From an uncultured Eubacteriales bacterium (lineage in GTDB: Bacteria; Bacillota; Clostridia; Oscillospirales; Oscillospiraceae), in the NCBI GenBank assembly GCA_900319465.1, contig ONOL01000005.1:27457-91456 (forward strand): a stretch of 64,000 nucleotides of DNA. The letters are read 5' to 3'. A program made the position numbers and the translations under genes. The number at the start of each line of letters is the position of its first letter. Position 1 is the stretch's first letter. This document shows positions 40,152-55,127 of this stretch, piece by piece. The notes under the pieces are model-generated. The model searched no databases. It was given only the letters and a program-made list of their open reading frames with translations, and was not told the origin of the DNA.

Positions 40152-41104
40152 CTCGGCAAAGCTTCAGGCTCTTCACCATTTCCGTCAGGTTTTTCATCCT
40201 TAATCTGAGCGTCAGGCGATTCCGCAAGGTTTTCTCCCAGTTTGATCAGCACAAAGGGCGAAAAGCTCGCGCAGTCCAGTTCGATCGCGCAGGCCAGCTC
40301 ATCGACCTGGAAATCCATTTTCTGTGCCATTCCGTTGTGGATATGGTACAGGATAAAATCGCTGAACGCGTCGGCGTCAAGGCGGCTGTTCCACAGTTCG
40401 CGCAGTTTCTCGGATTCGAGACGAACCCTGACGTTTTCGGAAGAATTGCCGAAAACACCGATATCCACAGACATGACCGTGGAAAATGCACGCTTATATT
40501 CCGTTGAAACCGTGCTGCTGAGGCTCTCCGAAAGCGCCGCCTCCGCTGCCTCCGATACCTCGCTGACCGAAAGCTCCGCGCCCGCGCTCTGGCCGCAGAT
40601 CGTCACACGGATCCTGTTGGCTTCATCTCCGTCGAAGATGCTTCCCTCTTTGGGCTCATCAAACACCACAGCAGCGCTCGGAAGCTGCCCGTCCCCTTCC
40701 GGGGTGTCCGGCTGCGTCGGGAGCTGCCCGTCCCCCTCCGGGGCGTCCGGCTGCGTCGGGAGCTGCCCGTCCCCCTCCGGGGCGTCCGGCTGCGTCGGGA
40801 TCTGCCCGTCCCCCTCCGGGGCGCCCGGCTGCGTCGGGATCTGTCCGTCAACCTCCTGCTTCTCTCCGAGCCCATTGTCAGACTCGGACGAGGAAGTCGT
40901 ATTCAATGTCAAATCTCCGCTCGGTTCATTCCCGCTCTCGTTTGCGGGATTGGCCAGGGTCTCTCCCACTTCTTCGCTTGACGTCGTTTCCATCGCCCAG
41001 GCCCGCGCATAGTTATCCATGCCCGTGCAGCCGAGCAGCATCACCAGAGCCAGCAGCAGCGTGAATCCTCTTCTGCAAATCCCTGTCCTGTTCATTTTCC
41101 GCAT
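40148..41104 (-). CDS. 5' part of the split pilin-like surface protein gene
   Basis: The 318-residue frame has a lipoprotein-like signal (LLLALVMLLGC, Cys at about 26), a Ser/Thr/Asn-rich segment, a 13-residue tandem repeat (PEGDGQLPTQPDA-like, about 90-145) and a domain ending in ASFSPFVLI, a common lead-in to repeat domains in Firmicute adhesins. It ends EPEALPR-stop. Adding one T to the TTT at about 40159-40161 would give EPEAFAEMTFLYPG and join it to the next frame. A real frameshift, a phase-variable tract or a sequencing error are all possible. The ATG follows GAGGATGCGG. Confidence 0.75.
   Translation of the reverse strand: MRKMNRTGICRRGFTLLLALVMLLGCTGMDNYARAWAMETTSSEEVGETLANPANESGNEPSGDLTLNTTSSSESDNGLGEKQEVDGQIPTQPGAPEGDGQIPTQPDAPEGDGQLPTQPDAPEGDGQLPTQPDTPEGDGQLPSAAVVFDEPKEGSIFDGDEANRIRVTICGQSAGAELSVSEVSEAAEAALSESLSSTVSTEYKRAFSTVMSVDIGVFGNSSENVRVRLESEKLRELWNSRLDADAFSDFILYHIHNGMAQKMDFQVDELACAIELDCASFSPFVLIKLGENLAESPDAQIKDEKPDGNGEEPEALPR
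40681..40855 (-). repeat. 39-bp tandem repeat coding PEGDGQ(L/I)PTQPDA
   Basis: About 4.5 copies of a 39-bp unit (TGCCCGTCCCCCTCCGGGGC core on the plus strand) within the 5' part of the surface protein gene. The copies are nearly identical, so copy number is likely to vary between strains. Confidence 0.9.
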
Positions 41105-41950: not shown

Positions 41951-42104
41951 TGGTGCACCAGAGATAATTCTCTGGTGCATTTTTCACTCTCCTTGGTGCA
42001 TTTCTGTTTTGTGGTGCATTTTGGGAGGGAACCTGGTGCATTGACCAAAATCGTGGTGCATTTGAAAAAATGTAGTGTAAATCGTAGGGCGTGGTGTAAA
42101 TTGA
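41951..42104. repeat. Iteron-like array of TGGTGCATTT repeats
   Basis: Copies begin at 41951, 41973, 41994, 42012, 42034 and 42054, with two degenerate copies (TAGTGTAAAT at 42073, TGGTGTAAAT at 42092). Spacing is 18-22 bp, about two helical turns, all in one orientation. The first copy is part of an inverted repeat TGCACCAGAG/CTCTGGTGCA. The layout is like multiple transposase-binding sites at an end of a Tn7/Mu-type element or initiator iterons. A minus-strand fragment with an excisionase-like helix (KAKDIARLLKLS, 42107-42142) abuts it. Confidence 0.8.
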
Positions 42105-42270
42105 ATACTAAGCTTTAATAGTCTTGCTATATCCTTCGCCTTCAGCACTCGCTCTATTGAAACGTTCTTGCTGTCGATTATATGCGTATCTTGATGGATG
42201 TTGACCCATCCTGTTTTCCCACTGGGATCGGTTCCTCCGGCGCTTTTTTCACGGAAAACCGAAAAAAAGC

Positions 42271-42285
42271 ATCCCCCCGGGGGGC
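42271..42285 (+). promoter_or_regulatory. C6-G6 palindromic operator, copy A (ECF operon)
   Basis: ATCCCCCCGGGGGGC lies directly before the -35 box (TTGTGG) of the ECF operon. Near-identical sites occur at 46768, 52656 and 52699. Confidence 0.75.
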
Positions 42286-42314
42286 TTGTGGGCGCACAAT
42301 TCATGCTCTATACT
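42286..42314 (+). promoter_or_regulatory. Promoter of the ECF transporter operon
   Basis: TTGTGG (42286-42291), 17-bp spacer, TATACT (42309-42314). The weak -35 box touches the operator. Confidence 0.7.
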
Positions 42315-42350
42315 TTGTCGTGGCAAAGTGAGAAAGGTGGGTATCAATCA

Positions 42351-43172
42351 TTGGCTTTCATCCGGGCGGAAAAGCTCATACATTCTTATGCTTTTGAGGG
42401 CAGTAAGCAGCGTTCTCTGGACGAGCTGTCACTGACGGTAGAGCGAGGAGAATTCCTGGCGATCCTTGGCCACAACGGCTGTGGGAAAACAACGCTGGCC
42501 CGCCATATCAACGCTCTTCTGGAGCTACAGGGCGGGGAGTTGACGATTGCCTCTCTGGACGCTAAAAACCGTGCTAATGTCTGGCGGATCCGCGAAAAGG
42601 TCGGTATGGTGTTCCAGAACCCGGACAATCAGTTCGTCTCCTCCATCATTGAGGAGGATCTGGCCTTCGGCCCGCGCAACTTTGGCGTGCCGGAGGAGGA
42701 GATTCCCGTTCGTATACAGACGGCGCTGGCTGCTGTGGGCATGAGCAGTTTCGAAAAACGCTCGCCCCATCTGCTCTCCGGCGGGCAAAAGCAGCGTATT
42801 GCCATCGCCGGCGTGCTCGCAGTGGATCCGGATATTATGATCTTCGACGAGGTGACAGCCATGCTCGATCCGGAGGGGCGGCGCGATGTGCTGAACACGA
42901 TCAAGCGCTTGCATGAGGACGGGAAAACGATCCTTATGATCTCGCACTACATTGAGGAAGCCGTGAACGCCGACCGGGTGGCGCTGATACACGATGGAAA
43001 ACTGCTCGCCGTCGGGACACCGCGGGAAATGCTGACGGATCTGGAACTGCTGCGGAGGACCGGACTGACCCCGCCGCTGCCGGTGCGGCTGTACCATGAC
43101 CTGAAAGCGCGGGGACGGGATTTGCCCTTCTGTCCGCTGACGGAGAGAGAACTGGTGGACGCCCTATGTTAG
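42351..43172 (+). CDS. ecfA1: ECF transporter ATPase (EcfA1-like)
   Basis: The 273-residue ABC ATPase has Walker A GHNGCGKTT (about 40-48), the Q-loop QNPDNQF, signature LSGGQKQR and Walker B IMIFDEVTAMLDP, all typical of EcfA. It powers uptake of a micronutrient through EcfT and the S component. I place the start at TTG 42351, which follows GAAAGGTGGG at good spacing and gives the usual short N terminus (AFIRAEKL). An upstream ATG at 42303 is possible. First gene of ecfA1-ecfA2-ecfT-S-methyltransferase under operator A. Confidence 0.9.
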   Translation: MAFIRAEKLIHSYAFEGSKQRSLDELSLTVERGEFLAILGHNGCGKTTLARHINALLELQGGELTIASLDAKNRANVWRIREKVGMVFQNPDNQFVSSIIEEDLAFGPRNFGVPEEEIPVRIQTALAAVGMSSFEKRSPHLLSGGQKQRIAIAGVLAVDPDIMIFDEVTAMLDPEGRRDVLNTIKRLHEDGKTILMISHYIEEAVNADRVALIHDGKLLAVGTPREMLTDLELLRRTGLTPPLPVRLYHDLKARGRDLPFCPLTERELVDALC

Positions 43173-44011
43173 AGTTGAGGGATTTGTCTTATACCTACGC
43201 GCCGGGAACCGCCTATGAAGCACAAGCGCTTGAAAAAGTTTCGCTTTGCGTACAAGCGGGCGAATTCGTCGGCATCATGGGGCGTACCGGCTGCGGAAAG
43301 TCCACCCTGATCCAGCTTGTCGCGGGGCTCATAACCCCGACCGGCGGACAGATCCTGTTGGACGGCGAGGACATCAACGACCGGCACTATGACCGAAATG
43401 TCCTGCGTCGAAAGGTCGGTGTGGTGTTCCAGTTCCCGGAGATCCAGCTGTTTGAAAAGACCGTTGCCCGAGATCTTGCCTTTGGTCTGAAGCAGTTTAA
43501 CTGGACGGCAGAGAAGAAAACAGCCTGCATACGCGAGGCGCTGGAGAGACTGGACTTCGATTATGACAGAATCAAAGACAAATCTCCCCTTGGTTTCTCC
43601 GGTGGGGAGAAGCGGCGGCTTGCCATCGCGGGCGTTCTGGCCGCAAGGCCGGAGATACTGATACTCGACGAACCCGTGGCAGGGCTCGATCCGCTGGGGC
43701 GTGATGCGTTTTTAAAGCTGTTGGACGAGCTCAACCGGGATGGCGTCACGATCCTGATGATCTCCCACAGCGCAGACGCGTTGGCCGAGCACGCAGGGCG
43801 CATCGTCGTGCTGAAGGACGGCCGCCTGCTGCGGGATGGGCCCACAGAGGTGGTGTTCTCAGACTGTGCAGGCTTGCAGGCAGAGGGCATCGGCGTGGGA
43901 CAGGTGCGAGAGGTGACAGAGCGGCTGCGCCGGCGTGGAGTGGAACTTCCGCTGAACACAGTCCGCTATGAGCAGCTTTTGGATGCGCTGGCGGGGAGGG
44001 AGAGTCTGTGA
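43166..44011 (+). CDS. ecfA2: ECF transporter ATPase (EcfA2-like)
   Basis: The 281-residue ABC ATPase has Walker A GRTGCGKST (about 38-46), QFPEIQLFEKTVARD (the EcfA2-type Q-loop), signature FSGGEKRR and Walker B ILILDEPVAGLDP. It forms the A-A' heterodimer with the preceding protein. It overlaps the first gene by 7 nt and the next by 4 nt, indicating coupled translation and fixed stoichiometry. Confidence 0.92.
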   Translation: MLELRDLSYTYAPGTAYEAQALEKVSLCVQAGEFVGIMGRTGCGKSTLIQLVAGLITPTGGQILLDGEDINDRHYDRNVLRRKVGVVFQFPEIQLFEKTVARDLAFGLKQFNWTAEKKTACIREALERLDFDYDRIKDKSPLGFSGGEKRRLAIAGVLAARPEILILDEPVAGLDPLGRDAFLKLLDELNRDGVTILMISHSADALAEHAGRIVVLKDGRLLRDGPTEVVFSDCAGLQAEGIGVGQVREVTERLRRRGVELPLNTVRYEQLLDALAGRESL

Positions 44012-44799
44012 ACCGACTTCCCGCCGGACTGTATCAGCCGGGCGATTCCCGGCTCCATCGGCTTGACGCGCTAAGCAAGATCCTGTGCCTGATCATCCTG
44101 CTCATCGCCGTAGTGAACACCACAACCATTCCCGGTTATGCCGTGCTGGCGCTACTGACCGGATTCTTGATTCGACTCTCGGGCATCCGACCCCCTGATG
44201 CGCTTCATTCTGCGACGCGGCTCGGCTGGTTTTTCCTGATCATTCTGCTGATGAATCTTTGCTTCTACGAGCCGGAACATCCCTGGTTCAGCTGGTGGAT
44301 CTTCCGTCCTTCAACCGAAGGACTGATGCAAGGCGTCAATGTAGTTGCGAGGGTATTTCTGCTGTTGGTGCTCAGCAATTTGCTGACCATTACCACGGCG
44401 CCGCTGGCAATGACCGAGGCCATGGAGCGCATACTCACGCCGCTGCGCATCCTTGGCGTGCCGACCGATCTCGTTGCAATGATCCTTTCGATTGCTATTC
44501 AGTTTATTCCTACGCTTCTGGAAGAGACCGACAACATCCGCAAGGCGCAGACAGCGCGCGGCGCGCGGTTCGACAGCAGAAAGCTGACAGAAAAGGCAAA
44601 TGCTGTGCTGTCCCTTGTGATACCGATCTTTCTGGCCGCGTTCAAGCGGGCAGATGAGTTAAGTCTCGCCATGGAAGCGCGGGGCTACCGTACCGATGTG
44701 AAGCGGAGCCGAAAAAAGTACGCGCCTTTACAGAGCCGCGATTGGCTGTCGATGGGCCTTTGCACTGCACTGGCGGTCGCGTACGTTGTCCTCAAGTAA
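44008..44799 (+). CDS. ecfT: ECF transporter transmembrane component EcfT
   Basis: The 263-residue protein has about five to six helices. The coupling-helix signatures with Ala-Arg-Gly are visible as AQTARGARFDS and AMEARGYR (about 188-200 and 224-231), which contact the ATPases. The start is GTG overlapping the ecfA2 stop (GTGA). It connects the ATPases to the S component encoded next. Confidence 0.92.
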   Translation: MNRLPAGLYQPGDSRLHRLDALSKILCLIILLIAVVNTTTIPGYAVLALLTGFLIRLSGIRPPDALHSATRLGWFFLIILLMNLCFYEPEHPWFSWWIFRPSTEGLMQGVNVVARVFLLLVLSNLLTITTAPLAMTEAMERILTPLRILGVPTDLVAMILSIAIQFIPTLLEETDNIRKAQTARGARFDSRKLTEKANAVLSLVIPIFLAAFKRADELSLAMEARGYRTDVKRSRKKYAPLQSRDWLSMGLCTALAVAYVVLK

Positions 44800-44848
44800 T
44801 TCCGCCGGAGCTCTCCGGCTGAAATAAAAACTTTAGGAGGAAAGAAAC

Positions 44849-45394
44849 ATGCAAAAGATGTCTACCGTAAAAAAGGCGATTATCACCGCCATCTGCATTG
44901 CCCTGTGCGTGGTGCTTCCTCAGGCCTTCCACGCCATTCCCCGGGCAGGCGCGATCTATCTGCCCATGCACATTCCCGTGCTGCTGTGCGGCCTGATCTG
45001 CGGCTGGCCCTTCGGCCTGCTGTGCGGCATCGCCGGACCGCTGCTCTCCAGTCTCTTTACCGGCATGCCTCCCGCCGCTGTGCTGCCCTCGATGGTGATC
45101 GAGTGCGCTGTGTACGGCTGTGCGGCCGGTCTGCTGATGAGCCTCGTGAAGACTAGGAACACCTATGCCGACCTCTATATCAGTCTGATCGGTGCCATGC
45201 TTTGCGGGCGCATCATTGCCGGTATCCTCCAGGCGCTGATTTTCTCCGCCGGTAACTATTCCATTGCCGCCTGGACCACCAGCTATTTTGTCACTGCTCT
45301 GCCCGGCATTATCATCCAGGTCGTTCTGCTTCCCAGCATCGTCTTTGCGCTGATGAAGGCCAGACTGATTCCCGAACGCTACCCCAAAGACTAA
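44849..45394 (+). CDS. ECF transporter substrate-binding S component, ligand unknown
   Basis: The 181-residue protein has six hydrophobic segments, an N-terminal stretch with A-x-x-x-A small-residue spacing (KKAIITAICIALCVVLPQA) for EcfT docking, and the S-component pattern MHIPVLLCGLICGWPFGLLCGIAGPLLSSLFTGMPP. It belongs to the PF12822-like ECF S proteins. It is not CbiM/NikM-like, which start with a metal-binding His. A vitamin, its precursor or a metal chelate is possible. It has its own ribosome site AGGAGG after a 49-bp gap. Confidence 0.85.
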   Translation: MQKMSTVKKAIITAICIALCVVLPQAFHAIPRAGAIYLPMHIPVLLCGLICGWPFGLLCGIAGPLLSSLFTGMPPAAVLPSMVIECAVYGCAAGLLMSLVKTRNTYADLYISLIGAMLCGRIIAGILQALIFSAGNYSIAAWTTSYFVTALPGIIIQVVLLPSIVFALMKARLIPERYPKD

Positions 45395-45397
45395 GCG

Positions 45398-45982
45398 ATG
45401 GATAAGCAGTCTGTTATAGAGTTCTTTGACCGCCTCGCCCCGCAATGGGACGCTGAGATGATTCGCTCCGACGAGATCATCGACATCATTCTGGATAATG
45501 CGGGTGTGAAGGAAGGGAAAGATGTCCTTGACGTGGCCTGCGGCACGGGCGTGCTGATCCCGGATTACCTCAAAAGAAATGCAGCTTCCGTCACGGCCAT
45601 CGACATCTCACCAAAAATGGCGGAACTGGCGAGGAAGAAATTCCCGCAGGAAAAGGTGGAAATACTCTGTGGAGACGTGGAGGAGACGGATTTCGACCGG
45701 CAGTTTGACTGTATTTTGGTTTACAACGCCTTCCCGCACTTTCCCGACCCGGAGCGACTGATTGTGAGGCTCACATCACTCATAAAGCCGGGCGGGATCG
45801 TTACGGTAGCCCACGGCATGAGCCGGGAGAAAATCGACGGTCACCATTCCGGTATGGCCAGCAAGGTCTCGCGCAGTCTTATGAGTGCAGAGGATCTGGC
45901 CGCGATCTTTTCCAGGGGACTAACAGTGACCACGGTGCTGTCCAATGATCGAATGTATCAAGTGGCAGGGAAAAAAGTGTGA
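45398..45982 (+). CDS. Class I SAM methyltransferase of the ECF operon
   Basis: The 194-residue UbiE-like methyltransferase has motif I VLDVACGTGVL (about 42-52), TAIDISPKM with the ribose-binding Asp (about 66-74) and LIKPGGIVTV. It starts 3 bp after the S component stop, so it is made with the transporter and may modify the imported ligand. Its body is not closely similar to the two methyltransferases of the neighbouring ABC operon. Confidence 0.85.
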   Translation: MDKQSVIEFFDRLAPQWDAEMIRSDEIIDIILDNAGVKEGKDVLDVACGTGVLIPDYLKRNAASVTAIDISPKMAELARKKFPQEKVEILCGDVEETDFDRQFDCILVYNAFPHFPDPERLIVRLTSLIKPGGIVTVAHGMSREKIDGHHSGMASKVSRSLMSAEDLAAIFSRGLTVTTVLSNDRMYQVAGKKV

Positions 45983-45996
45983 ATCGTTGATCCTGT

Positions 45997-46045
45997 GCAG
46001 ACAGGTACCTGGATATATGTTTTTCAGGTACCTGTCTGCTTTGCT
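45997..46045 (+). terminator. Terminator of the ECF operon
   Basis: A 15-bp perfect stem (GCAGACAGGTACCTG with its complement at 46025-46039) is followed by a short T-rich tail. Confidence 0.75.
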
Positions 46046-46107
46046 GTCTTATATACCCGACAAATCCAAGGATAACTCCACAAACCCGGGTCCAGCAAGG
46101 CGATCCG

Positions 46108-46728
46108 ATGATCAAGAGGATCCTGTGGCTCCTGTTAGTTGCCTGTTTCCTGACCGGATGCGCCTCTCAAACTGAGGTGCCGACTGTGGTATCGCAGAAA
46201 ACGCCCGTCCCAACTACGGAATCGACAGTGCAGCAGTTTAAGTCAGAGAGCCTGGCGGAAGCAACACCGGTATTGGAAGCAGCGCAGGCAGAGATAATTG
46301 AGGAGACTAAGCCAGTCATGAAGCTGAAGATCAATGACACAGTTGTTGAAGTCCTATGGGAAGATAACGAGTCGGTCGAGGCGCTTTTCAATCTCGTTTT
46401 GGCAGAGCCCCTTACGATCAGAATGTCGATGTACGGAGGTTTTGAGCAAGTCGGCTCGATTGGATCAAGCCTTCCGCGAAACGACGTACAGACAACGACT
46501 TCTGCCGGGGATATCGTGCTGTATTCCGGCAGCCAGATCGTCGTCTTCTACGGCTCCAACTCCTGGGCATGTGACTGTGATGGCTTAACTCTGCTTGGAG
46601 AAAATGAGGCCCTCCGTGTGACCGGCACGGAGGGCCTTAGCAAGAGAGATCTTTGGTATCCCTTGTGTCGGAGAGGTGAAAGAGACACATGGATTGAGGG
46701 AGATCCGGGATACCGTTCAAGCATCTGA
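46108..46728 (+). pseudogene. Cyclophilin-like lipoprotein with internal deletion and shifted C terminus
   Basis: The reading frame codes 206 residues with a lipobox (LTGC, Cys about 18), a Thr/Glu linker and a cyclophilin-like fold (PF18050 type: MYGGFEQVGSIGSSLPRNDVQTTT, GDIVLYSGSQIVVFYGSNSW, about 110-153). Family members continue after NSW through about 20 residues to a final GDVTVTLS-like strand. Here the sequence right after TCCTGG gives GHVTVMA-stop in the +1 frame (46565-46588), and a hairpin at 46606-46638 follows. So about 15-25 codons were deleted out of frame, and the last 50 residues of the present frame are read-through. Confidence 0.7.
46606..46638 (+). terminator. Hairpin after the ancestral stop of the cyclophilin-like gene
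   Basis: GAGGCCCTCCGTG with CACGGAGGGCCTT, loop TGACCGG, no T run. It lies inside the present open frame, which supports a shorter original gene. Confidence 0.6.
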
Positions 46729-46767
46729 TCTGATAACAGAATATCAGATTATTTTGAATGGCGGAAG

Positions 46768-46779
46768 CCCCCCCGGGGG
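46768..46779. promoter_or_regulatory. C-tract/G-tract palindrome, copy B
   Basis: Seven C then five G between convergent gene ends. On the minus strand it is followed by TTCCGC, 17 bp and TATTCT, the same layout as the other copies, yet no minus-strand gene lies downstream. Possibly a relic promoter. Confidence 0.45.
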
Positions 46780-46787
46780 ATAAAAAT

Positions 46788-47546
46788 TCAAAAAATCGCG
46801 TCCACCAGCCGTTTTGCGTAATCTGACTGCGGGCACAGGATCACCTCGTCGGGCATTCCCTGCTCTACGATCTTTCCGTCGTAGAGGACGACGACCCTGT
46901 CGCAGAACTGCTGTACCAGCGCCAGATTGTGACAGATAAAAAGATACGCGAGCTTCTTTTCCTTCTGAAGCTGCTGCAGCAGCTCGATGATCTGCTTCTG
47001 CACGGTCACGTCCAGCGCGGAGGTCGCCTCATCGAAGATGAGCACGCGCGGATCGCACATCAGCGCACGCGCGATCGCTGCGCGCTGGCACTGGCCACCG
47101 GAGACCTGGTGCGGATAGCGTTCGAGAAACTCGCCGGGCAGACCGCACTGCTCGAGCAGACTCCGCGCCTTCGCCTCACGCTCCGCCTTCGGCACGCCCT
47201 TATTGCGCAGGCTCTCGCAGATACCATCGCCCAGCGTGCGGCGGGGATCAAAGGAGCCGGCCGGTGACTGAAAGACCATCTGGATCTTCGCGTAGACCGG
47301 GATCAGCGCGCGCCCGGACAGCTTGGTGACATCCTGCCCGTCGATCTCGATCCGGCCGGTGGTCGGGTCGATCTGACGGGTGATCAGCTTGGCGATCGTG
47401 GACTTGCCGGAGCCGGATTCGCCCACGACGCCGAGGATCTCGCCGGGACAGACGGAGAAGCTCACGTGATCCACGGCGTAAAACTCGTTCTTTCCGGCGC
47501 GGGAGAAGACTTTGGAAAGGTCTGTGACCTTCAGGATCGGTTCCAT
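46788..47546 (-). CDS. ABC transporter ATPase, OppF/NikE type
   Basis: The 252-residue ATPase has Walker A GESGSGKST (about 41-49), Q-loop QSPAGSFDPR, signature VSGGQCQR and Walker B VLIFDEATSALD. It is the last gene of a six-gene nickel/peptide-type uptake operon (methyltransferase, two permeases, binding protein, two ATPases). It is shorter than many OppF proteins, which carry a C-terminal Fe-S extension; this length suits NikE-like members. Confidence 0.9.
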   Translation of the reverse strand: MEPILKVTDLSKVFSRAGKNEFYAVDHVSFSVCPGEILGVVGESGSGKSTIAKLITRQIDPTTGRIEIDGQDVTKLSGRALIPVYAKIQMVFQSPAGSFDPRRTLGDGICESLRNKGVPKAEREAKARSLLEQCGLPGEFLERYPHQVSGGQCQRAAIARALMCDPRVLIFDEATSALDVTVQKQIIELLQQLQKEKKLAYLFICHNLALVQQFCDRVVVLYDGKIVEQGMPDEVILCPQSDYAKRLVDAIF

Positions 47547-47553
47547 TTCTTTC

Positions 47554-48336
47554 TTACCCCCTCCGCAGTCTGGGTACCGCGCTCAGCAGCTTTTTGGTAT
47601 AGTCGTTCTGCGGTTTTTCCAGCACATCGCCAGCCTTGCCGTACTCCATCACATTCCCGTCCTGCAGGACGAGGATGCTGTCGGCCATGGCAGAGACGAC
47701 ACCGATGTCGTGCGTGACGATGATGATCGCCGTGCCGAACACCTCGCGGACGTTGAGCATCTCCTCCACGACCTGCCGCTGCACGGCCACGTCGAGCGCG
47801 GAGGTCGGCTCGTCCGCCATGAGGACAGTCGGGTTCATCAGCATGGCGATCGCAATGCCCGCGCGCTGGTTCATGCCGCCGGAGAGCTCAAAGGGATAGC
47901 TGCTCCAGACCCGCTCGCCGTCCTTGAAATTCAGTTTGTCGAGCAGCTCCATGGCCGTGGCCTTCGCCTCCGCGACGTCCACCTTTCGGTGCGCCGCAAG
48001 ACTCTCCACGATCTGCTCGCCGATCGTGCGGATCGGGCTGAGGGACGCGCCGCAGTCCTGGAAGATCATACCGATCTTCTCCCCGCAGATATGCCGCATC
48101 TCCGTGTCGCTGAGGTCTGGGAGATTCTTCCCCTCAAACCAGATATCGCCCTTCGTGACCATGCCGCTGCTGCCCAGCAGCCCCATGGCCGCCTTGATCA
48201 GTGTCGATTTGCCGGAGCCGGACTCACCAACCAGACCGAGAATCTCGCCCGGATGAAGCTGAAAGCTCACGTCGTGGACGACGGGATTGCCGTTGAAGGA
48301 GATCTCCACGTGCTGATAATCCAATAATACTGCCAT
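47554..48336 (-). CDS. ABC transporter ATPase, OppD/NikD type
   Basis: The 260-residue ATPase has Walker A GESGSGKST (about 38-46), Q-loop QDCGASLSPIRTIGEQ, signature LSGGMNQRAGIA and Walker B VLMADEPTSALD. It pairs with the OppF/NikE-type ATPase encoded 7 bp downstream. The gap to the upstream binding-protein gene holds a 12-bp hairpin that may attenuate ATPase expression. Confidence 0.9.
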   Translation of the reverse strand: MAVLLDYQHVEISFNGNPVVHDVSFQLHPGEILGLVGESGSGKSTLIKAAMGLLGSSGMVTKGDIWFEGKNLPDLSDTEMRHICGEKIGMIFQDCGASLSPIRTIGEQIVESLAAHRKVDVAEAKATAMELLDKLNFKDGERVWSSYPFELSGGMNQRAGIAIAMLMNPTVLMADEPTSALDVAVQRQVVEEMLNVREVFGTAIIIVTHDIGVVSAMADSILVLQDGNVMEYGKAGDVLEKPQNDYTKKLLSAVPRLRRG

Positions 48337-48354
48337 AGAAAAACCTCACAGGGA

Positions 48355-48382
48355 GCATGGGGCGGGAAAACCCGCCCCATGC
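48355..48382 (-). terminator. Attenuator hairpin between binding protein and ATPase genes
   Basis: GCATGGGGCGGG/CCCGCCCCATGC with loop TTTT on the minus strand; no T run. Likely lowers downstream expression or protects the upstream mRNA. Confidence 0.6.
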
Positions 48383-48397
48383 TTGTTTCCGCAAAGC

Positions 48398-49960
48398 TCA
48401 GTTGATATCCAGCGCCGCGGTCAGCTCGTAGAAGTCACAGGTGTGCGCTTCGAGACCGGTAACGCCCTTTTGCATGATCATGCTCATTCGCAGGAAGGAG
48501 CAGAAGATATAGGAATTGTCGTCCAGCAGCTCCTGCTGCATCTCAACGGCAATCTTGGCGCGTGCGGCCGGATCGAATGTGCCGCGGAGCTGAACGGCCA
48601 GCTTCTCCAGCCTGTCGCTGTGGTGGCCGCCGGAGTTCTTGATGGAGGCGTCCAGACAGTAGGTATCAAAGAAGTTGGCGGGGTCGCCCAGACCGGCGTT
48701 GACATTGGCGCTGACCCAGATGTCCCACTGGGTGGGATCCTTGCGGATGGAGTTGTGATCCTTCGTACTGTTGATCTGGACCTCGATGCCGATCTCCTTG
48801 AGCGTAGCCTGCGCGGACTCGGCCAGCAGCGGCAGCTCCTGACGGGACGGGTAGGTCAGCCAGCGGATGGACAGCTTCTGTCCGTCCTTCTCGCGGATGC
48901 CGTCGCCGTCCGTATCGACCCAGCCGGCCTGCTCCAGAACGGCCTTGGCCTGCGCGGGATCATAGGAGACCGTATTGACGCCCTGGCCGAAGGCAAAGCT
49001 GTCGGGGAAGGCGCCGGTCGCGGTATAGCCGTAGCCGTTGAGCAGAACATCGACAAAGCCCTGCTTGTTGATGCCCAGCGCGATCGCCTTACGGACCGCG
49101 GGATCGCTCATGATCGCGTAGCCGGGGTTTTCCACATGCAGGTTCACCATGCCCCAGAAGCAGCGGCTGGTCTGGATGCTGGTGAACTTGTAGTTGTCGT
49201 TCTCAAAGAGCGGATAGCTGGCGTAAGCCATGCCGTAAGCGGCGTCGATCTCGCCGGACTGCAGCGCCATGGCCAGCGTATCGCCGTCGGAAATGGTGCG
49301 GACGGTGATCTCGTCAATGTGGACCTCGCCGTCCCAGTAGTTGGTGTTCTTGACTAGACTCACGTGGTCGTCGGTCACGACCTCTGTGGCCACATACGGG
49401 CCGGTGCCGACCACGCAGCCGTTCTCGGGGATACCGACTTCCATGTCGATGATGCAGCCGTAGGCCTCGGAAAGATAGTTCATCAGAATGGGGTTGGGTT
49501 CGGAGGTGACGATGGTCAGCTTCTGGCCGTCCGCCTCCATGGAGGCGATCTTCAGGTTGTCCGCGGCGCGCTCGTGGACCTCGATGAGATGCTCGAGGCA
49601 GGCCTTGACCGCGGCCGCGTCGCACTTTTTGCCGTTGGAGAAGCAGACCGCATCCTTGATCATGATCTCCCAGCTCGTTTCGTTGATATTGGTCGCGCTC
49701 TCTGCCAGCCAGGGCTGCAGGGAGCCGTCGTCCGCGATCTTCATCAGCGTCTCGCCGACGCCGTAGCGAATGCAGGGCCAGCCCGAGTAGGCGTAATGGG
49801 GGTTGATATCCGGCTCTTCGTTCTCGGCGTTGAAGGTGGTGTCGCCGAAGACGAAGGTCTTCTTGCCGCCGGAGGCCGCGGGAGCGTTGGAGCCGCTTCC
49901 GCAGGCGGCCAGCCCGAGGACCATGCACAGAGCGAGGAGCAGTGCCAGAATCTTTTTCAT
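48398..49960 (-). CDS. Extracytoplasmic solute-binding lipoprotein (SBP family 5, NikA/DppA type)
   Basis: The 520-residue lipoprotein (LGLAACGSGS, Cys about 20) has the family 5 pattern: GETLMKIADDGSLQPWLAES, FSNGKKCDAAAVKACLEHL (shifted F-x-DGxPxTAxDV signature), GTGPYVATEVV, DPAVRKAIALGINK and YDPAQAKAVLEQAGW. Such proteins bind peptides, nickel-chelator complexes or opine metallophores. His pairs near LDASIKNSGGHHSDRL could contact a metal, but that is speculative. Confidence 0.9.
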   Translation of the reverse strand: MKKILALLLALCMVLGLAACGSGSNAPAASGGKKTFVFGDTTFNAENEEPDINPHYAYSGWPCIRYGVGETLMKIADDGSLQPWLAESATNINETSWEIMIKDAVCFSNGKKCDAAAVKACLEHLIEVHERAADNLKIASMEADGQKLTIVTSEPNPILMNYLSEAYGCIIDMEVGIPENGCVVGTGPYVATEVVTDDHVSLVKNTNYWDGEVHIDEITVRTISDGDTLAMALQSGEIDAAYGMAYASYPLFENDNYKFTSIQTSRCFWGMVNLHVENPGYAIMSDPAVRKAIALGINKQGFVDVLLNGYGYTATGAFPDSFAFGQGVNTVSYDPAQAKAVLEQAGWVDTDGDGIREKDGQKLSIRWLTYPSRQELPLLAESAQATLKEIGIEVQINSTKDHNSIRKDPTQWDIWVSANVNAGLGDPANFFDTYCLDASIKNSGGHHSDRLEKLAVQLRGTFDPAARAKIAVEMQQELLDDNSYIFCSFLRMSMIMQKGVTGLEAHTCDFYELTAALDIN

Positions 49961-50003
49961 CTTTGTCGTTCCTTTCTTTTATCTAAATAAATTAGATCGC
50001 AAA

Positions 50004-50861
50004 TCAGCGCGCCCGCGAGTTCTTCGGGTCCATATAGTCGCGCACCGTATCGCCCAGCAGATTGAAGATCACGACCGTCAGGAAAATCGCGAAGCCGGGG
50101 CTCAGCACCAGCCAGGGATAGGTCTGCAGCATACTTCGGCCTCCGCTCATCATGTTGCCCCACTCGGCCGTGGGCGGCTGCGCGCCAAGGCCGAGGAAGC
50201 TCAGTCCAGCCAGCTCCATCATCATCGTGCCGATGTCCAGCATCGCCGTGACAAGGATCGGGCCGAGGATATTCGGCAGGATGTGCCGCAGGATCATCTG
50301 CCCGGACGTGCTTCCGGAGAGCCGCGCCGCCGCCACGAAGGAGCTGTTTTTCAGCGCCAGCGTCTGGCTTCGCGCCACGCGCGCATATTTCGGCCAGCTG
50401 ATGACCGCCAGCGCGAGCACCGCGTTGCTGACGCCGCCTCCCAGCAGCGCCGCGATCGCCAGGGCGAAGACCAGGCCCGGGAAGGCCAGGCATACGTCCG
50501 AGATGCGCATCACGACCGAGTCTAGTGCGCCGCCGTAGTAGCCGCAGAGCGTTCCCACGACCGTGCCGAAGAGAGAGATCACACCGACCAGCGCCAGCGT
50601 GGCGAAGATACTGGTCTGCGCGCCGACCAGCACGCGGGAGAACAGATCCCGTCCGTAGCGGTCGGTGCCCATCCAGTGCTCGGGTGAGGGCGGCAGCATG
50701 GATCGGCTCAGATCCTGCGCGTAGGGATCATATGGGGCAATTTGATTGGCAAAGAGCGTCACCAGCAGCAGGATCGCCACCAGGATCAGGAAGAAGATCA
50801 AGCGGGTCTTGATGCCGCTTTTTTTCACTTTTTGAACGCGAACCGTCACCGTATCCTTCAT
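50004..50861 (-). CDS. ABC transporter permease, DppC/NikC type
   Basis: The 285-residue permease has about six helices, the N-terminal LAPPSPEHWMGTD-like entry (MLPPSPEHWMGTDRYGRDLFSR), and the EAA loop (ARLSGSTSGQMILRHILPNILGP, about 190-212). ATG 50861 was chosen because GGGAGGG precedes it and it overlaps the upstream permease stop (ATGA); a frame to 51029 lacks a site. Confidence 0.92.
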   Translation of the reverse strand: MKDTVTVRVQKVKKSGIKTRLIFFLILVAILLLVTLFANQIAPYDPYAQDLSRSMLPPSPEHWMGTDRYGRDLFSRVLVGAQTSIFATLALVGVISLFGTVVGTLCGYYGGALDSVVMRISDVCLAFPGLVFALAIAALLGGGVSNAVLALAVISWPKYARVARSQTLALKNSSFVAAARLSGSTSGQMILRHILPNILGPILVTAMLDIGTMMMELAGLSFLGLGAQPPTAEWGNMMSGGRSMLQTYPWLVLSPGFAIFLTVVIFNLLGDTVRDYMDPKNSRAR

Positions 50862-51802
50862 TGCTCGATCCCTCCCAGCCGGATCCGCGGATCCAGAAAG
50901 CGATAGCTCAGGTCGGTGATGAGGTTGAAGACCACATATATGATGGCCATCCACATGACGTAAGCCTGGATGATCGGATAGTCGCGCATATTGATGGCGT
51001 CCACCGCCATCTTCCCGACGCCGTCCCACATGAAGATCGACTCGACGATGGCCGTGCCGCCCAGCAGCGAGCCGATCGAGAGCGTCAGCAGCGTGATGAT
51101 CGTCACGAGCGAGGCTTTCATGACGCTCCTGATCATCGTGGTTGAAAACTTCACGCCTCTGGCTTTTGCGCCGAGCACGTAATCCTTACTCAGCTCGTCG
51201 AGCACCGTGGCGCGGACCTGGCGCAGATATTTGGCCGACATGGCGATGGCCAGCGTCAGCGCGGGCAGCGCCACGCTCTGCAGGCTCACGCCCCGGGAGA
51301 TGACCGGGAACCAGTTCAGCCGGATGGCAAAGAGATACATCAGCAGCAGCGAGACGAAAAAGTTCGGCAGCGAGTTACCGATAAAGCTCGCCGTGCGGAT
51401 CACATAGTCGGTCGCCCTGTTCTGCTTCACAGCCGACCAGATCCCCAGCGGGATCGATATGAGCACCGTCAGAAAAATGGAAACGAGCGTCAGCAGCAGC
51501 GTAGCCGGCAGCTTGGATACGAAGGTGGAAAAGACCGGCTTATTGGAGACGTAGGAGGTGCCCATGTCGCCGCGGAGCAGATTGCCGAGCCAGGTGAAGT
51601 ACTGCACCACGAAGGGCTTGTCCAAACCCAGTTCTTCTCTGGCCGAGTCGATCATTTCCTGCGAGACCGTGCCGCTGGTGTTCTCCATCTTCTGCTCGAC
51701 CACGTCGCTGCCCGCGATACGCATCATGCCATAGGAGAGGAAGGTAATCGCGAGCAGGATCGGGATCAGCTGCAGCAGCCGTTTGACTGCATAGTGTTTC
51801 AT
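50858..51802 (-). CDS. ABC transporter permease, DppB/NikB type
   Basis: The 314-residue permease starts MKHYAVKRLLQLIPILLAI, contains GLDKPFVVQYFTWLGNLLRGDMGTSY and the EAA-like loop DYVLGAKARGVKFSTTMIRSVMKASL. It forms the heterodimeric pore with the next gene product. The start overlaps the methyltransferase stop by 4 nt. Confidence 0.92.
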   Translation of the reverse strand: MKHYAVKRLLQLIPILLAITFLSYGMMRIAGSDVVEQKMENTSGTVSQEMIDSAREELGLDKPFVVQYFTWLGNLLRGDMGTSYVSNKPVFSTFVSKLPATLLLTLVSIFLTVLISIPLGIWSAVKQNRATDYVIRTASFIGNSLPNFFVSLLLMYLFAIRLNWFPVISRGVSLQSVALPALTLAIAMSAKYLRQVRATVLDELSKDYVLGAKARGVKFSTTMIRSVMKASLVTIITLLTLSIGSLLGGTAIVESIFMWDGVGKMAVDAINMRDYPIIQAYVMWMAIIYVVFNLITDLSYRFLDPRIRLGGIEQ

Positions 51803-52542
51803 GTTGCCGCCCCCTGTGCTTTGAAGGCTGCGATGGTAAAGATCGGCGTGGGGTTGAAGAACTCGTCGATCTCGGCATAGATGCGCCGATAGACGCCCAT
51901 GTCCACCGTGACGCGCTCGAAGCCCGCTTCGATGAGCAGCTGCACGTCCCATTGCGGGCGCGGTCCGTGATAAGCGCCGACCTCCATGGTGATGGCGTCG
52001 TTTTCTGCTCTCATATAGTCAGGCACCAGCTTGTGCGCGTGGTTTTCCGGCAGCTCGTGTTCTTCCTCATTCTCCAGCGCGGCGCTGTAATCCGCGTCAA
52101 AGTTGATGAGCACACCGCCGGGCTTTAAGAGCTTGTACCACTCCCGATAGGCCTTCTCGATATGCGGCAGCGTCCAGGTCAGATTGCGGGTCACCAGCAC
52201 GTCGAAGCTCTCCGGCTCAAATTCCGGCTCCTCCGCGTCCATGAGAAGGAAGCTGGCGTCCAGCCCCAGCACCGCGGCCATGTGCTCGGCGTGCTCGATC
52301 ATGTCCGCCGTCAGGTCGATCCCGGTCGCCTCATGGCCTTCGGCAGCCAGCAGGCAGGCGAAGAAGCCCGTCCCTGTCCCTATGTCCAGAACTCGCAGAA
52401 TTTTCCCCTGCGGCAGATACCTGCGAAATTCCGCAAGCCATCGATCCCGTTTTTCGCTGTCATATTCACGCAGACGCTGCGCCTCAAAGGCCTCCGCCCG
52501 GTGGGACCAGTAATGCGTCACGCGATGCTTGATCAGTTCCAT
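51799..52542 (-). CDS. Class I SAM methyltransferase heading the ABC operon
   Basis: The 247-residue protein has motif I VLDIGTGTGFFACLL (about 50-64), ATGIDLTADM and the segment TRNLTWTLPHIEKAYREWYKLLKPGGVLINFDAD. This segment is shared almost word for word with the divergent methyltransferase at 53699-54490 (RNLTW-LP, AY-EW, LKPGG, NFDA), so the two are paralogues. ATG 52542 with GAGGGAAAG was preferred; ATG 52572 also fits. It is cotranscribed with the transporter, which suggests a methylated ligand or a ligand made by methylation. Confidence 0.88.
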   Translation of the reverse strand: MELIKHRVTHYWSHRAEAFEAQRLREYDSEKRDRWLAEFRRYLPQGKILRVLDIGTGTGFFACLLAAEGHEATGIDLTADMIEHAEHMAAVLGLDASFLLMDAEEPEFEPESFDVLVTRNLTWTLPHIEKAYREWYKLLKPGGVLINFDADYSAALENEEEHELPENHAHKLVPDYMRAENDAITMEVGAYHGPRPQWDVQLLIEAGFERVTVDMGVYRRIYAEIDEFFNPTPIFTIAAFKAQGAAT

Positions 52543-52625
52543 GTGCTTTCCCTCTCTTGGTCTTTGGTCCATGCTCCCTCAAGCACTTGACCGCCCCATC
52601 ACCGGGATCGGCAGACCATACGGAA

Positions 52626-52667
52626 ATTATATATCTCCCTTTTTCTGCGCGTAAGCCCCCCGGGGGG
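52626..52667 (-). promoter_or_regulatory. Promoter and C6-G6 operator, copy C (ABC operon)
   Basis: On the minus strand the palindrome CCCCCCGGGGGG (52667-52656) is followed by C and -35 TTACGC (52654-52649), 17-bp spacer and TATAAT (52631-52626). Confidence 0.8.
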
Positions 52668-52696
52668 ATATAAAATGCAAAAACTTTGAACTTTTT

Positions 52697-52741
52697 ATCC
52701 CCCCTGGGGGGTTGTGAAGCAGCAAAAAAACGTGTTACTCT
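52697..52741 (+). promoter_or_regulatory. Promoter and C6-T-G6 operator, copy D (M14/methyltransferase operon)
   Basis: ATCCCCCCTGGGGGG (52697-52711) runs directly into -35 TTGTGA (52712-52717), then 17-18 bp and TTACTCT. It is 31 bp from the divergent copy C. Confidence 0.75.
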
Positions 52742-52770: not shown

Positions 52771-53718
52771 ATGGCCGTAAAAACCATCGCCGGGCATGAG
52801 CTGACGCCCGGCAAAACGGTAAAAGATCATATCCATGTGGAGGGCACCGAGCTGCACGTGCCCCATGTGCTGCTCTGCGGCAGGCGGCCGGGGTCGACGG
52901 TGCTGATCTCCGCGGGCATACACAACGCAGAGTACGTCGGCATCCAGGCGGCGATCGAGCTGTCCAACGAACTGGATGTGGACGAGCTGTGCGGCAGCGT
53001 CGTCATCCTGCCGCTCATCAACCGCTCCGGCTTTGAAAACCGCACCATGTCCCGCGTCTTTGAGGACGGAAAGAATCTCAACCGCGTCTTCCCCGGCGAT
53101 CGGAAGGGCAGCGAAGCCGATCGGCTCGCCGCCATGCTCTTTGAGGTGTTCATCCAAAAGGTGGACGCTTATATCGACCTTCACAGCGGCGACGGCTACG
53201 AGACTCTGATACCCTACGCCTACTACTTGGGCGACACCCCCGCCGAGGAGACAGCAAAGCGAATGGTTGCCTGCGTCAACACGAAGTACTATGTGCGCTC
53301 GCGCTGCCGCACGGGTGGGGCCTACAATCTGGCCTCCGTCCATGGCATCCCCAGCGTGCTCATCGAGCGCGGGCAGCTTTCTCTGTTCAGCCGGGAGGAG
53401 ATCGAGGCGGACAAGGCCGACGTGCGCAACATCCTGCGTGTCTTAAGCGTGCTGCCGGGCGAGGCGATCTCCTATCCCAAGACGCAGCTTTTGGAATACA
53501 GCGACGACGCGCCCTTTACCGGCTGCTGGTATCCCGAAAAGCAGCCCGGCGATCTCTTCCGCAAGGGCGATAAGCTGGGTGAGATCCGCGACTATTTCGG
53601 GCGCAGCCTGTTCACGGAGTTTGCACCGCAGGACGGGGTGCTGCTGCATCAGTGCGCCTCGCTGAACATTCTGGAGGAAGGGCCGATGGTGACTTACGGT
53701 GTCCCAATCAACGATTGA
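52771..53718 (+). CDS. M14-type deacylase (succinylglutamate desuccinylase/aspartoacylase-like)
   Basis: The 315-residue zinc hydrolase has the metal motif GIHNAEYVG (H-x-x-E, about 50-58) and the third ligand His in YIDLHSGDG (about 134-142). NLNRVFPGD (about 108-116) is the substrate-binding N-x-N-R-x-x-P-G element of AstE/AspA and related carboxypeptidases. It would hydrolyse an N-acyl or peptide-like amide on a small molecule. ATG 52771 has GGAGG at 6 nt; an ATG 6 nt earlier touches the site. Under operator D with a methyltransferase, it may process the transporter ligand. Confidence 0.85.
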   Translation: MAVKTIAGHELTPGKTVKDHIHVEGTELHVPHVLLCGRRPGSTVLISAGIHNAEYVGIQAAIELSNELDVDELCGSVVILPLINRSGFENRTMSRVFEDGKNLNRVFPGDRKGSEADRLAAMLFEVFIQKVDAYIDLHSGDGYETLIPYAYYLGDTPAEETAKRMVACVNTKYYVRSRCRTGGAYNLASVHGIPSVLIERGQLSLFSREEIEADKADVRNILRVLSVLPGEAISYPKTQLLEYSDDAPFTGCWYPEKQPGDLFRKGDKLGEIRDYFGRSLFTEFAPQDGVLLHQCASLNILEEGPMVTYGVPIND

Positions 53719-54490
53719 AGCTGAAAACAAAAGCTACTGGACCGGCCGCGCCTCCGGCTATTCGGAGGTCAACCAGTTGGAGCTTGCTACCGAGCAACGG
53801 CAAAAGTGGAGCGCCTGTCTCAAGGATGAGATCGCAAAGCAGTTTCCGAACAGAGCACCGCAGGAGCTGCGCGTACTGGAGGTCGGCACCGGGCCTGGCT
53901 TCTTTGCTATCCTTCTCTGTGAGCTGGGCCATGACGTGACTGCGATCGATCTCACGCCCGCCATGCTCAAAGAGGCAAAAAAGAACGCCGGCACCTTGGC
54001 CGGCGAGATCCAATGGATGGAGATGAACGCAGAGGCTCTGGGCTTTGCGGACGGGAGCTTTGACGTTGTGGTCAGCCGCAATCTCACTTGGAATCTTCCG
54101 CGCCCGGAACAGGCCTACGCCGAATGGGCGCGGGTGTTGAAGCCGGGCGGTCTGCTGCTGAACTTCGACGCCAACTGGTACGCCTATCTGTTTGACGATG
54201 CTGCTCGGCAGGCTTTTGACCGGGATCGAGCCAACAGCGCCAAGCAGGGCGTATGCGATCAGAACGTCGGAGAAAACTTCGATGTCATGGAGGACATCGC
54301 AAGACGTGTCCCGCTCTCCGGCATCCGTCGCCCGGACTGGGATCTGCGGCAGCTCTCGAAGCTCGGCCTTTCCGCCGAAGCGGACGAAACCGTCTGGCAG
54401 CGTGTCTGGTCGGAGGAGGAAAAGCTCAATTTCGCCTCCACGCCACTGTTTCTGGTAAGAGCTCAACGCGCTCCCATGATTCAACGTTAG
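53699..54490 (+). CDS. Class I SAM methyltransferase, paralogue of the ABC-operon enzyme
   Basis: The 263-residue protein has motif I VLEVGTGPGFFAILL (about 59-73), TAIDLTPAM and SRNLTWNLPRPEQAYAEWARVLKPGG. The start is GTG 53699, overlapping the M14 gene by 20 nt, so the two are translated together. Strong local identity with the methyltransferase at 51799-52542 indicates duplication, and the two copies are now placed in divergent operons that share operator-type sites. Confidence 0.85.
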   Translation: MSQSTIEAENKSYWTGRASGYSEVNQLELATEQRQKWSACLKDEIAKQFPNRAPQELRVLEVGTGPGFFAILLCELGHDVTAIDLTPAMLKEAKKNAGTLAGEIQWMEMNAEALGFADGSFDVVVSRNLTWNLPRPEQAYAEWARVLKPGGLLLNFDANWYAYLFDDAARQAFDRDRANSAKQGVCDQNVGENFDVMEDIARRVPLSGIRRPDWDLRQLSKLGLSAEADETVWQRVWSEEEKLNFASTPLFLVRAQRAPMIQR

Positions 54491-54708: not shown

Positions 54709-54783
54709 TGGTGACCCGTACGGGACTCGAACCCATGTTACCGCCGTGAAAGGGCGGTGTCTTAACCACTTGACCAACGGGCC
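54709..54783 (-). tRNA. tRNA-Glu (anticodon TTC)
   Basis: 75 nt. Acceptor GGCCCGT/ACGGGTC, then A-CCA encoded; anticodon stem CCGCC/GGCGG with loop CTTTCAC, anticodon TTC; T-loop TTCGAGT. Cotranscribed with the upstream tRNA-Met. Confidence 0.95.
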
Positions 54784-54823
54784 TAAAGAAAGACGCAGCA
54801 GAGCTTCAATATGCTGCGCCTTT

Positions 54824-54900
54824 TGGTAGCGGCACCTGGATTCGAACCGGGGACACTGCGGGTATGAACCGCATGCTCTAGCCAACTGAGCTATGCCGCC
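54824..54900 (-). tRNA. tRNA-Met (anticodon CAT, elongator type)
   Basis: 77 nt. Acceptor GGCGGCA/TGCCGCT, then A-CCA; anticodon stem TGCGG/CCGCA with loop TTCATAC, anticodon CAT; T-loop TTCGAAT. The anticodon stem lacks the three G-C pairs of initiator tRNA, so elongator Met is likeliest; a lysidine-type tRNA-Ile is less likely. Confidence 0.9.
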
Positions 54901-54931
54901 ATATTGGGACTCCTTTTGGAGAACATGTAGG

Positions 54932-54960
54932 ATTTTAGCAGAGAACGCACCACTTGTCAA
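54932..54960 (-). promoter_or_regulatory. Promoter of tRNA-Met/tRNA-Glu
   Basis: Minus strand TTGACA (54960-54955), 17-bp spacer, TAAAAT (54937-54932). Confidence 0.85.
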
Positions 54961-55010
54961 CAGGTAATTTCAGTTTTTTCGATTTTTCCGGGAAAAGCGG
55001 AAATTCCCTC

Positions 55011-55039
55011 TTGAAATCTCCTGCAGGATATGTTATCAT
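55011..55039 (+). promoter_or_regulatory. Promoter of tRNA-Val
   Basis: TTGAAA (55011-55016), 17-bp spacer, TATCAT (55034-55039), just before the tRNA. Confidence 0.7.
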
Positions 55040-55050
55040 AAGCAGGCTTT

Positions 55051-55127
55051 GGAGGGTTAGCTCAGCTGGTTAGAGCGTCCGCCTCACACGCGGAAGGTCG
55101 ACGGTTCGAGTCCGCCACTCTCCACCA
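55051..55127 (+). tRNA. tRNA-Val (anticodon CAC)
   Basis: 77 nt. Acceptor GGAGGGT/ACTCTCC, then A-CCA; anticodon stem TCCGC/GCGGA with loop CTCACAC, anticodon CAC at 55085-55087; T-loop TTCGAGT. It borders the mobilisation module and is a possible integration target, although no second copy of its 3' end was seen to the right. Confidence 0.95.

Follow-up and report, generated by a model that had tools for sequence, protein, structure and literature searches.

Metal sensors of the CsoR/RcnR family, such as RcnR of Escherichia coli and the CsoR proteins of the Bacillus subtilis type, recognize G/C-tract operators and act as repressors of efflux that are released from the DNA by metal. InrS of Synechocystis, besides repressing export, is reported to enhance the expression of nickel import (nik) genes (review, PMC7055735). 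As reported in PMC2667541, NikR accompanies NikABCDE in under half of the organisms that have this transporter, which hints at further regulators, and a review (PMC9294342) tabulates NikS and s-SodF as the nickel-linked small RNAs (sRNAs), with s-SodF acting in nickel starvation. Here, we describe a 64,000-nucleotide (nt) stretch, hereafter the window, of contig ONOL01000005.1 from an uncultured Oscillospiraceae bacterium (assembly GCA_900319465.1, G000 in our set; 1,997,602 bases, 88.5% complete), in which a palindrome of six C followed by six G (CCCCCCGGGGGG) adjoins the -35 boxes of transport promoters. This palindrome probably marks a nickel- or cobalt-type uptake switch in gut and rumen Clostridia that is read by a His-rich relative of InrS.

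InrS is the nearest solved relative of this candidate regulator, and the two have the C-H-C pattern of metal ligands in common; unlike InrS, the system described here combines a His-rich N-terminal tail, a C6G6 operator fixed beside the -35 box, and several uptake systems together with a small RNA. RcnR and the B. subtilis-type CsoR belong to the same family (PF02583), whereas here the link is to uptake genes. NikR would govern the same kind of uptake genes but is practically absent from the genomes with the motif. NikS (Helicobacter pylori, under NikR), s-SodF (Streptomyces coelicolor, under Nur), RyhB and FsrA are likewise small RNAs under metal-responsive regulators; the RNA found here differs from them in the family of its regulator and in having no Rfam match. 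The main text of PMC4938975, which deals with the copper CsoR regulon of gut metagenomes, contains none of the words nickel, cobalt and uptake. The top-ranked titles and abstract openings among open-licence papers include nothing on the C6G6 motif, the regulon or the RNA, and CCCCCCGGGGGG occurs in none of 20 papers so listed. The findings add to the CsoR/RcnR family a probable regulon whose operator geometry is unusual and one of whose members is an RNA outside the described families, and they name a candidate regulator, for the Clostridia of gut and rumen, of nickel transporters controlled independently of NikR.

The palindrome and its promoters

The first-pass annotation had placed three palindromes 0-1 nt upstream of the -35 boxes of transport operons, and direct reading confirms all three; of its description of three divergent operons, the part that stands is the mutual divergence of the ATP-binding cassette (ABC) and M14 operons, whereas the energy-coupling factor (ECF) operon is separate. 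There is, in addition, a fourth copy, absent from that annotation and reading C7G5 on the plus strand, whose promoter reads on the minus strand with the geometry of the other sites (C before the -35 box, CTTCCGC; 17-nt spacer; TATTCT).

42273-42284, plus strand: C6G6 palindrome CCCCCCGGGGGG of the ECF operon, followed by C, -35 box TTGTGG (42286-42291), 17 nt and -10 box TATACT (42309-42314)
52656-52667, minus strand: C6G6 palindrome CCCCCCGGGGGG of the ABC operon, followed by C, -35 box TTACGC (52654-52649), 17 nt and -10 box TATAAT (52631-52626)
52699-52711, plus strand: C6-T-G6 palindrome CCCCCCTGGGGGG of the M14 operon, directly abutting the -35 box TTGTGA (52712-52717); the -10 box is weaker, TTACTC (52735-52740) at 17 nt or TACTCT at 18 nt
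46768-46779, minus strand: fourth palindrome (C5G7 on this strand), -35 box TTCCGC (46766-46761), 17 nt and -10 box TATTCT (46743-46738)

The exact C6G6 occurs twice in the window, compared with a mean of 0.01 in shuffled sequences and with 0 of 100 shuffles reaching two copies; when two mismatches are tolerated, the enrichment shrinks, with 18 overlapping matches compared with a shuffle mean of 6.75 and a maximum of 16. Genome-wide, the relaxed pattern CCCCCNNGGGGG (C5NNG5) is found in seven distinct places and the reversed control pattern in none. Promoter geometry is apparent at six of these places, namely the four in the window, one before cbiM and one before a His-rich CsoR/RcnR-family gene; the seventh lies inside a 564-amino acid open frame on contig C20. 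As a separate observation, spaced direct repeats (TGGTGCAT/TGGTGTAA) precede the ECF promoter at 42000-42115.

When named genomes were scanned for C6G6 followed by TT and a -10 box, at least 116 stretches matched, 114 of them distinct. Among the 80 listed matches with titles, none is from a named non-Bacillota organism and one is titled uncultured bacterium; one promoter (L040) is identical to the window's promoter at 52656 and may come from the same species. Forty-eight of the 116 listed loci, in 47 genomes, were picked by hand for variety, including all five with a His-rich csoR as the first gene. An unconstrained search of these 47 motif genomes finds C6G6 88 times, at least 48 of them by construction, and the reversed control once. 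Random scatter with no link to promoters, an outcome that the first-pass annotation had named as fatal to its proposal, is not what is seen, either here or at the seven places in the window's genome.

For 111 of the 116 listed promoters, an open reading frame (ORF) could be called as the first gene, and 77 of these 111 are transporter parts. The first genes encode CbiM (46), S-adenosylmethionine (SAM) methyltransferases (16), Peripla_BP_2 (13) and SBP_bac_5 (7) proteins, binding-protein-dependent (BPD) permeases (6), His-rich CsoR (5), FecCD (5) and a small protein (3), and there are 10 singles; the Pfam scan covered representatives of most of these clusters, and the representative of the CbiM cluster carries a PDGLE domain. 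Among the singles, L016, L024 and L093 are RNA sites and some others look like wrong frames. The small protein, of ~130 amino acids (MACFLVSATEAVVVTAIEKG...), follows the C6G6 promoter in L022, L069 and L099, and its L022 copy has no Pfam match.

In the 114 distinct promoters, the palindrome is preceded by A at -2 in 94% and by T at -1 in 81% (A in 17%) and is followed by C in 98%, and an A/T block lies 5-9 nt upstream. The spacer is 17 nt long in 95 of the 116 listed promoters. The -35 box is typically TTGCGG, TTCCGC or TTGCGC and starts with TTGA in none of the 114; in control promoter-like sequences from the same loci that lack a G tract, position 4 is A in 31 of 100, and TTGACA occurs seven times.

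A His-rich CsoR/RcnR-family protein as the candidate regulator

The guess of a single CsoR/RcnR-family regulator, made from the window's sequence, gains support from a His-rich CsoR-family gene that is itself preceded by the motif and from the co-occurrence of its clade with the motif. In the window's genome, this candidate is a protein of 115 amino acids encoded on contig C29 (PF02583, 90.8 bits; cut-off 22.8); a second PF02583 protein, copper CsoR-like, has no motif in its upstream 400 nt. PF02583 proteins are present in 46 of the 48 motif genomes, the window's included (82 were extracted). Their scores are bimodal, with a clean gap separating the His-rich clade from groups that we take to be copper CsoR types and FrmR/CstR-like types. 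The clade is represented in 43 of the 48 motif genomes (42 of 47 without the window's), and in 37 of 42 after the five genomes picked through that very gene (G215, G227, G238, G239 and G241) are left out, compared with 11 of 197 genomes sampled from the window's order (10 of 196 without the window's). Two culturable bacteria, Butyrivibrio sp. NC2007 (L055) and Pseudoflavonifractor sp. MSJ-37 (L061), are among those that possess both the motif and the candidate regulator. Fisher's exact test on 42/47 versus 10/196 gives 7e-32, a value that ignores kinship and hand-picking and compares motif genomes extending beyond the window's order with a sample confined to it.

The nearest solved chain is InrS (5fmn, 95.8 bits, E = 1.1e-26), followed by 6ahx (89.1 bits) and CsoR 4m1p (67.6 bits); the NCBIfam RcnR model gives 36.9 bits against a cut-off of 138. 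The metal ligands C29, H54 and C58 are invariant in 18 aligned proteins, a loose C-H-C pattern is found in 42 of 45, and the N-terminal tail, a possible source of a fourth nickel ligand, contains a median of 11 His (range 0-23 in 45). The motif or a variant of it, centred near -42, stands before 16 of the 54 His-rich clade genes, such as ATCCCCGGGAGGGGCTTGCG (G111) and ATCCCCCCATGGGGCTTGCA (L223); degenerate forms lie near csoR in G111, G133 and G068, three genomes in which the exact motif is lacking. A link between the regulator and the motif is very probable.

NikR was considered as the regulator and rejected: its PF08753 domain is absent from the window's genome and gives a single match, of 23.7 bits (cut-off 22), in the 48 genomes. 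The relaxed C5NNG5 pattern was likewise dropped as a marker in relatives, being too noisy in GC-rich members of the family.

A small RNA behind the fourth palindrome

No visible protein gene is faced by the fourth palindrome, and the minus strand behind it encodes a structured RNA.

46606-46733, minus strand: structured small RNA of ~130 nt with a CAGATCAGATG leader, a three-way junction, CU-rich loops and an intrinsic terminator

This small RNA has its own promoter in the metal regulon, a stable fold (-53.9 kcal/mol, z -6.0) and a terminator. Homologues behind C6G6 promoters share CAGATCAGATG and the three-way junction, with the terminator in place except in L016; among further copies, L345 either lacks the terminator or has it displaced, and in L346 none is evident. 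A covariance model built from seven sequences, used with stricter filters at which weak matches are lost, detects the RNA in 11 of the 48 motif genomes. Two genomes of the order sample also match, the window's own and, at a weak 29 bits, G052. Six complete copies were not picked by the exact C6G6 (L337, L342, L343, L344, L346 and L347), and five of these have a variant C/G palindrome in place (C5AG6 or C5AG7, C7G5, C5TG6); one more, L348, is cut by a contig end, with the promoter out of sight.

In an alignment of 12 sequences, from which L347, the second L345 match, L346 and L348 are excluded, 95% of the cells pair and double changes occur at 18 of 29 pairs (7.9 in shuffled and at most 6 in slid controls), with a covariation score of 0.424 versus 0.156; although this alignment had been fitted to the model, the changes in the stems are equally easy to see in the raw one. 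The first loop keeps CCCTCAA in 10 of the 12 RNAs and CACCTCTC is also present in 10, in nine of them within the second loop. The complements of the loops resemble ribosome-binding sites (GGAGAGGTGAAA, TTGAGGGAGA). The three-way junction would display CU-rich loops of the anti-Shine-Dalgarno type, and the RNA would probably repress the translation of dispensable metal-using proteins. It is a candidate nickel-sparing sRNA, with a metal-sparing role a possibility that falls slightly short of an even chance.

No Rfam family reaches its gathering threshold, the best match below threshold being flavi_FSE (21.8 versus 43); this match and that to mir-557 were judged spurious (below gathering, opposite strand). 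The detached terminator of L345 (L349) and the matches L350-L353 (~20 bits) were set aside.

Several features of the RNA loci can be recorded separately. In the window, a plus-strand ORF (46108-46728) for a lipoprotein-like product is overlapped over its final ~40 codons by the antisense RNA gene; the cyclophilin-like domain of the product ends before the overlap. In L347 (G221:C2, ~85082), three successive C/G palindromes and a shortened RNA precede an AstE/AspA-type-like ORF, comparable to the window's gene at 52771. The 80-nt RNA piece at a contig end in G203 (L348, G203:C70:36) appears letter-identical to the G223 copy (L337), perhaps reflecting a misplaced contig.

Sign of regulation, metal and alternative explanations

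From the sites, their geometry, the genes behind them and their co-occurrence with the His-rich clade, we infer the following scheme. The operator A-N-CCCCCC-GGGGGG-CTT would govern a metal-uptake regulon, most likely for nickel, and would be read by the His-rich, InrS-like protein. In metal-poor cells, the metal-free protein, centred near -42 beside a poor -35 box, would aid RNA polymerase and so induce ECF transporters for Ni/Co (cbiM) and ABC transporters of the nickel type, the latter together with methyltransferases and a deacylase, as well as, in some genomes, the regulator's own gene and, in some, the small RNA; once metal is bound, the protein would leave the DNA and uptake would fall. 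Taken as a whole, this reading is moderately favoured.

Class II activator-dependent promoters have a conserved but poor -35 box beside a fixed operator near -42. A layout of this type is present here, with a weak -35 box adjoining the operator, a normal spacer and an operator centre near -42 if transcription is taken to start 7 nt after the -10 box; the poor conserved -35 box together with the fixed operator gives these promoters the look of activator dependence. Three genomes of the order sample have an operator of the same kind after the -10 box:

G141: csoR with an EamA transporter, operator after the -10 box, -35 box TTGACG
G054: csoR-cbiQOMN, operator after the -10 box, -35 box TTGACA
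G068: csoR with a P-type ATPase, operator after the -10 box, -35 box TTGACA

The contrast between these -35 boxes and those that adjoin the palindrome is the best argument that the position of the operator decides the sign of regulation. Activation by the metal-free form is the somewhat likelier mode. More tentative is the wider proposition that a metal-free sensor of the CsoR fold is a true class II activator of a nickel-starvation regulon in many Clostridia, one target being a new family of sRNAs that bring about a nickel-sparing response through their anti-Shine-Dalgarno loops; this would be a nickel counterpart of Fur with RyhB in which the sign of the transcription factor is reversed. If activation is the case, position would turn a fold that is otherwise known from repressors into an activator, and one kind of operator would serve a repressor when it follows the -10 box and an activator when it precedes the -35 box. 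The RNA would found a new nickel-responsive sRNA family.

The gene content lends good support to the earlier guess that the regulon serves uptake of the nickel or cobalt type, given that the motif precedes cbiM and that the window's operons encode the following ECF and nickel-type ABC transporters:

42351-44799, plus strand: ECF module of two CbiO-type ATPases and CbiQ (PF00005 twice, PF02361)
TTG start near 42351 (first) and 43166-44011 (second), plus strand: CbiO-type ATPases (PF00005)
44008-44799, plus strand: CbiQ (PF02361)
44849-45394, plus strand: ECF substrate-specific component (PF12822), apparently in the ECF operon
45398-45982, plus strand: SAM methyltransferase (Methyltransf_11), apparently in the ECF operon
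46788-51952, minus strand: nickel/oligopeptide-type ABC transporter with two ATPases, a substrate-binding protein and two permeases
46788-47546 and 47554-48336, minus strand: ABC transporter ATPases
48398-49960, minus strand: substrate-binding protein; the best model is a nickel-binding one, under its cut-off (312.7 versus 600)
50004-51029 and 50858-51952, minus strand: ABC transporter permeases
51799-52572, minus strand: SAM methyltransferase, first gene of the ABC operon, starting at 52572 or further in
52771-53718, plus strand: AstE/AspA-type (M14-like) deacylase (PF24827)
53699-54490, plus strand: SAM methyltransferase, second gene of the M14 operon

Nickel is the likely metal, in preference to cobalt, because of the kinship with InrS and because one permease (50858-51952) passes the NCBIfam nickel ABC permease model NF045470 (361.8 bits versus a cut-off of 350).

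The same regulator could also act with the opposite sign, the metal-bound His-rich CsoR binding C6G6 and blocking sigma region 4 at the -35 box, in a NikR-like logic implemented with a CsoR fold. Uptake genes are usually controlled by co-repression, the palindrome does abut the -35 box, and in G054 the operator follows the -10 box of an uptake operon (csoR-cbiQOMN). A plain repressor, however, needs neither a fixed position nor the non-consensus -35 box seen throughout the listed promoters (TTGA in 0 of 114, 17-nt spacer in 95 of 116), the clade member before the P-type ATPase in G068 has the layout of a metal-free repressor, and the operator gives up on its -35 side the AT flank that is present on both sides in L286. 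This arrangement is the main alternative, though it appears unlikely. Less probable still, and indeed quite improbable, is that some other protein, such as a class II activator of the CRP/FNR type, reads C6G6 and that the His-rich csoR is merely another of its targets. CRP/FNR activators do bind near -42, and the His-rich protein is missing from some motif genomes, but this explanation has to account for the co-occurrence (42/47 versus 10/196) and for the G/C palindromes that precede the His-rich gene even in some genomes without the exact C6G6 there; the search for other regulators covered NikR, which is practically absent, and did not extend to CRP/FNR or further families.

It is extremely improbable that the palindromes arose by chance or are structural elements, such as terminators or repeats, with no regulator involved. 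Of 51 C6G6 sites extracted from 18 of the motif genomes, 27 fail the strict pattern (close variants counted), and seven of these, inspected by eye, do look like repeats, hairpins, low-complexity or coding sequence. In the other 20, however, the palindrome is followed at 0-1 nt by TT, and all but one of them (19) have a -10-like hexamer (at least four of six matches to TATAAT) 22-25 nt on in the better of two orientations, compared with 319 of 2,924 random TT positions at the same loci, scored in one orientation; moreover, C6G6 far outnumbers its reversed control (88 versus 1) and the downstream genes are of one kind.

Several observations weigh against metal-free activation of a nickel regulon by the InrS-like protein. 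The exact ANC6G6NTT occurs in one of the 197 order-sample genomes, the window's own, and is thus rare even within the order; the PF02583 search did not find the His-rich protein in five of the 47 motif genomes, and 38 of the 54 His-rich genes have no motif at the -42 geometry before themselves. One of the 16 that do (L248) has the -35 box TTGAAA, the contrast of -35 boxes by operator position rests on three promoters, and one RNA copy (L344) has no motif. The uptake operon of G054 looks repressed, which fits a metal-bound repressor better; the protein encoded there (L327) is the lowest-scoring clade member in the order sample and has no His-rich tail, and this csoR-like gene heading cbiQOMN is possibly a repressor-type offshoot. 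As to the metal, the motif-preceded CbiM of the window's genome, which begins MHMADALLAP, falls below the NCBIfam cut-offs, and nickel enzymes are uninformative: a lactate racemase domain is present in 4 of 11 genomes and carbon monoxide dehydrogenase exceeds its cut-off in 1 of 15, with neither in the window's genome.

Apart from the regulon, CCCTCCGGGGCG is repeated three times at 40734-40823 with a spacing of exactly 39 nt, possibly a repeat inside a coding region. Three tRNA genes lie at 54712-55124, and ~2.4 kb further, an actin-like (ALP/MreB-like) protein is encoded on the minus strand (57546-58475); the segment 54712-58475 is possibly mobile or plasmid-derived.

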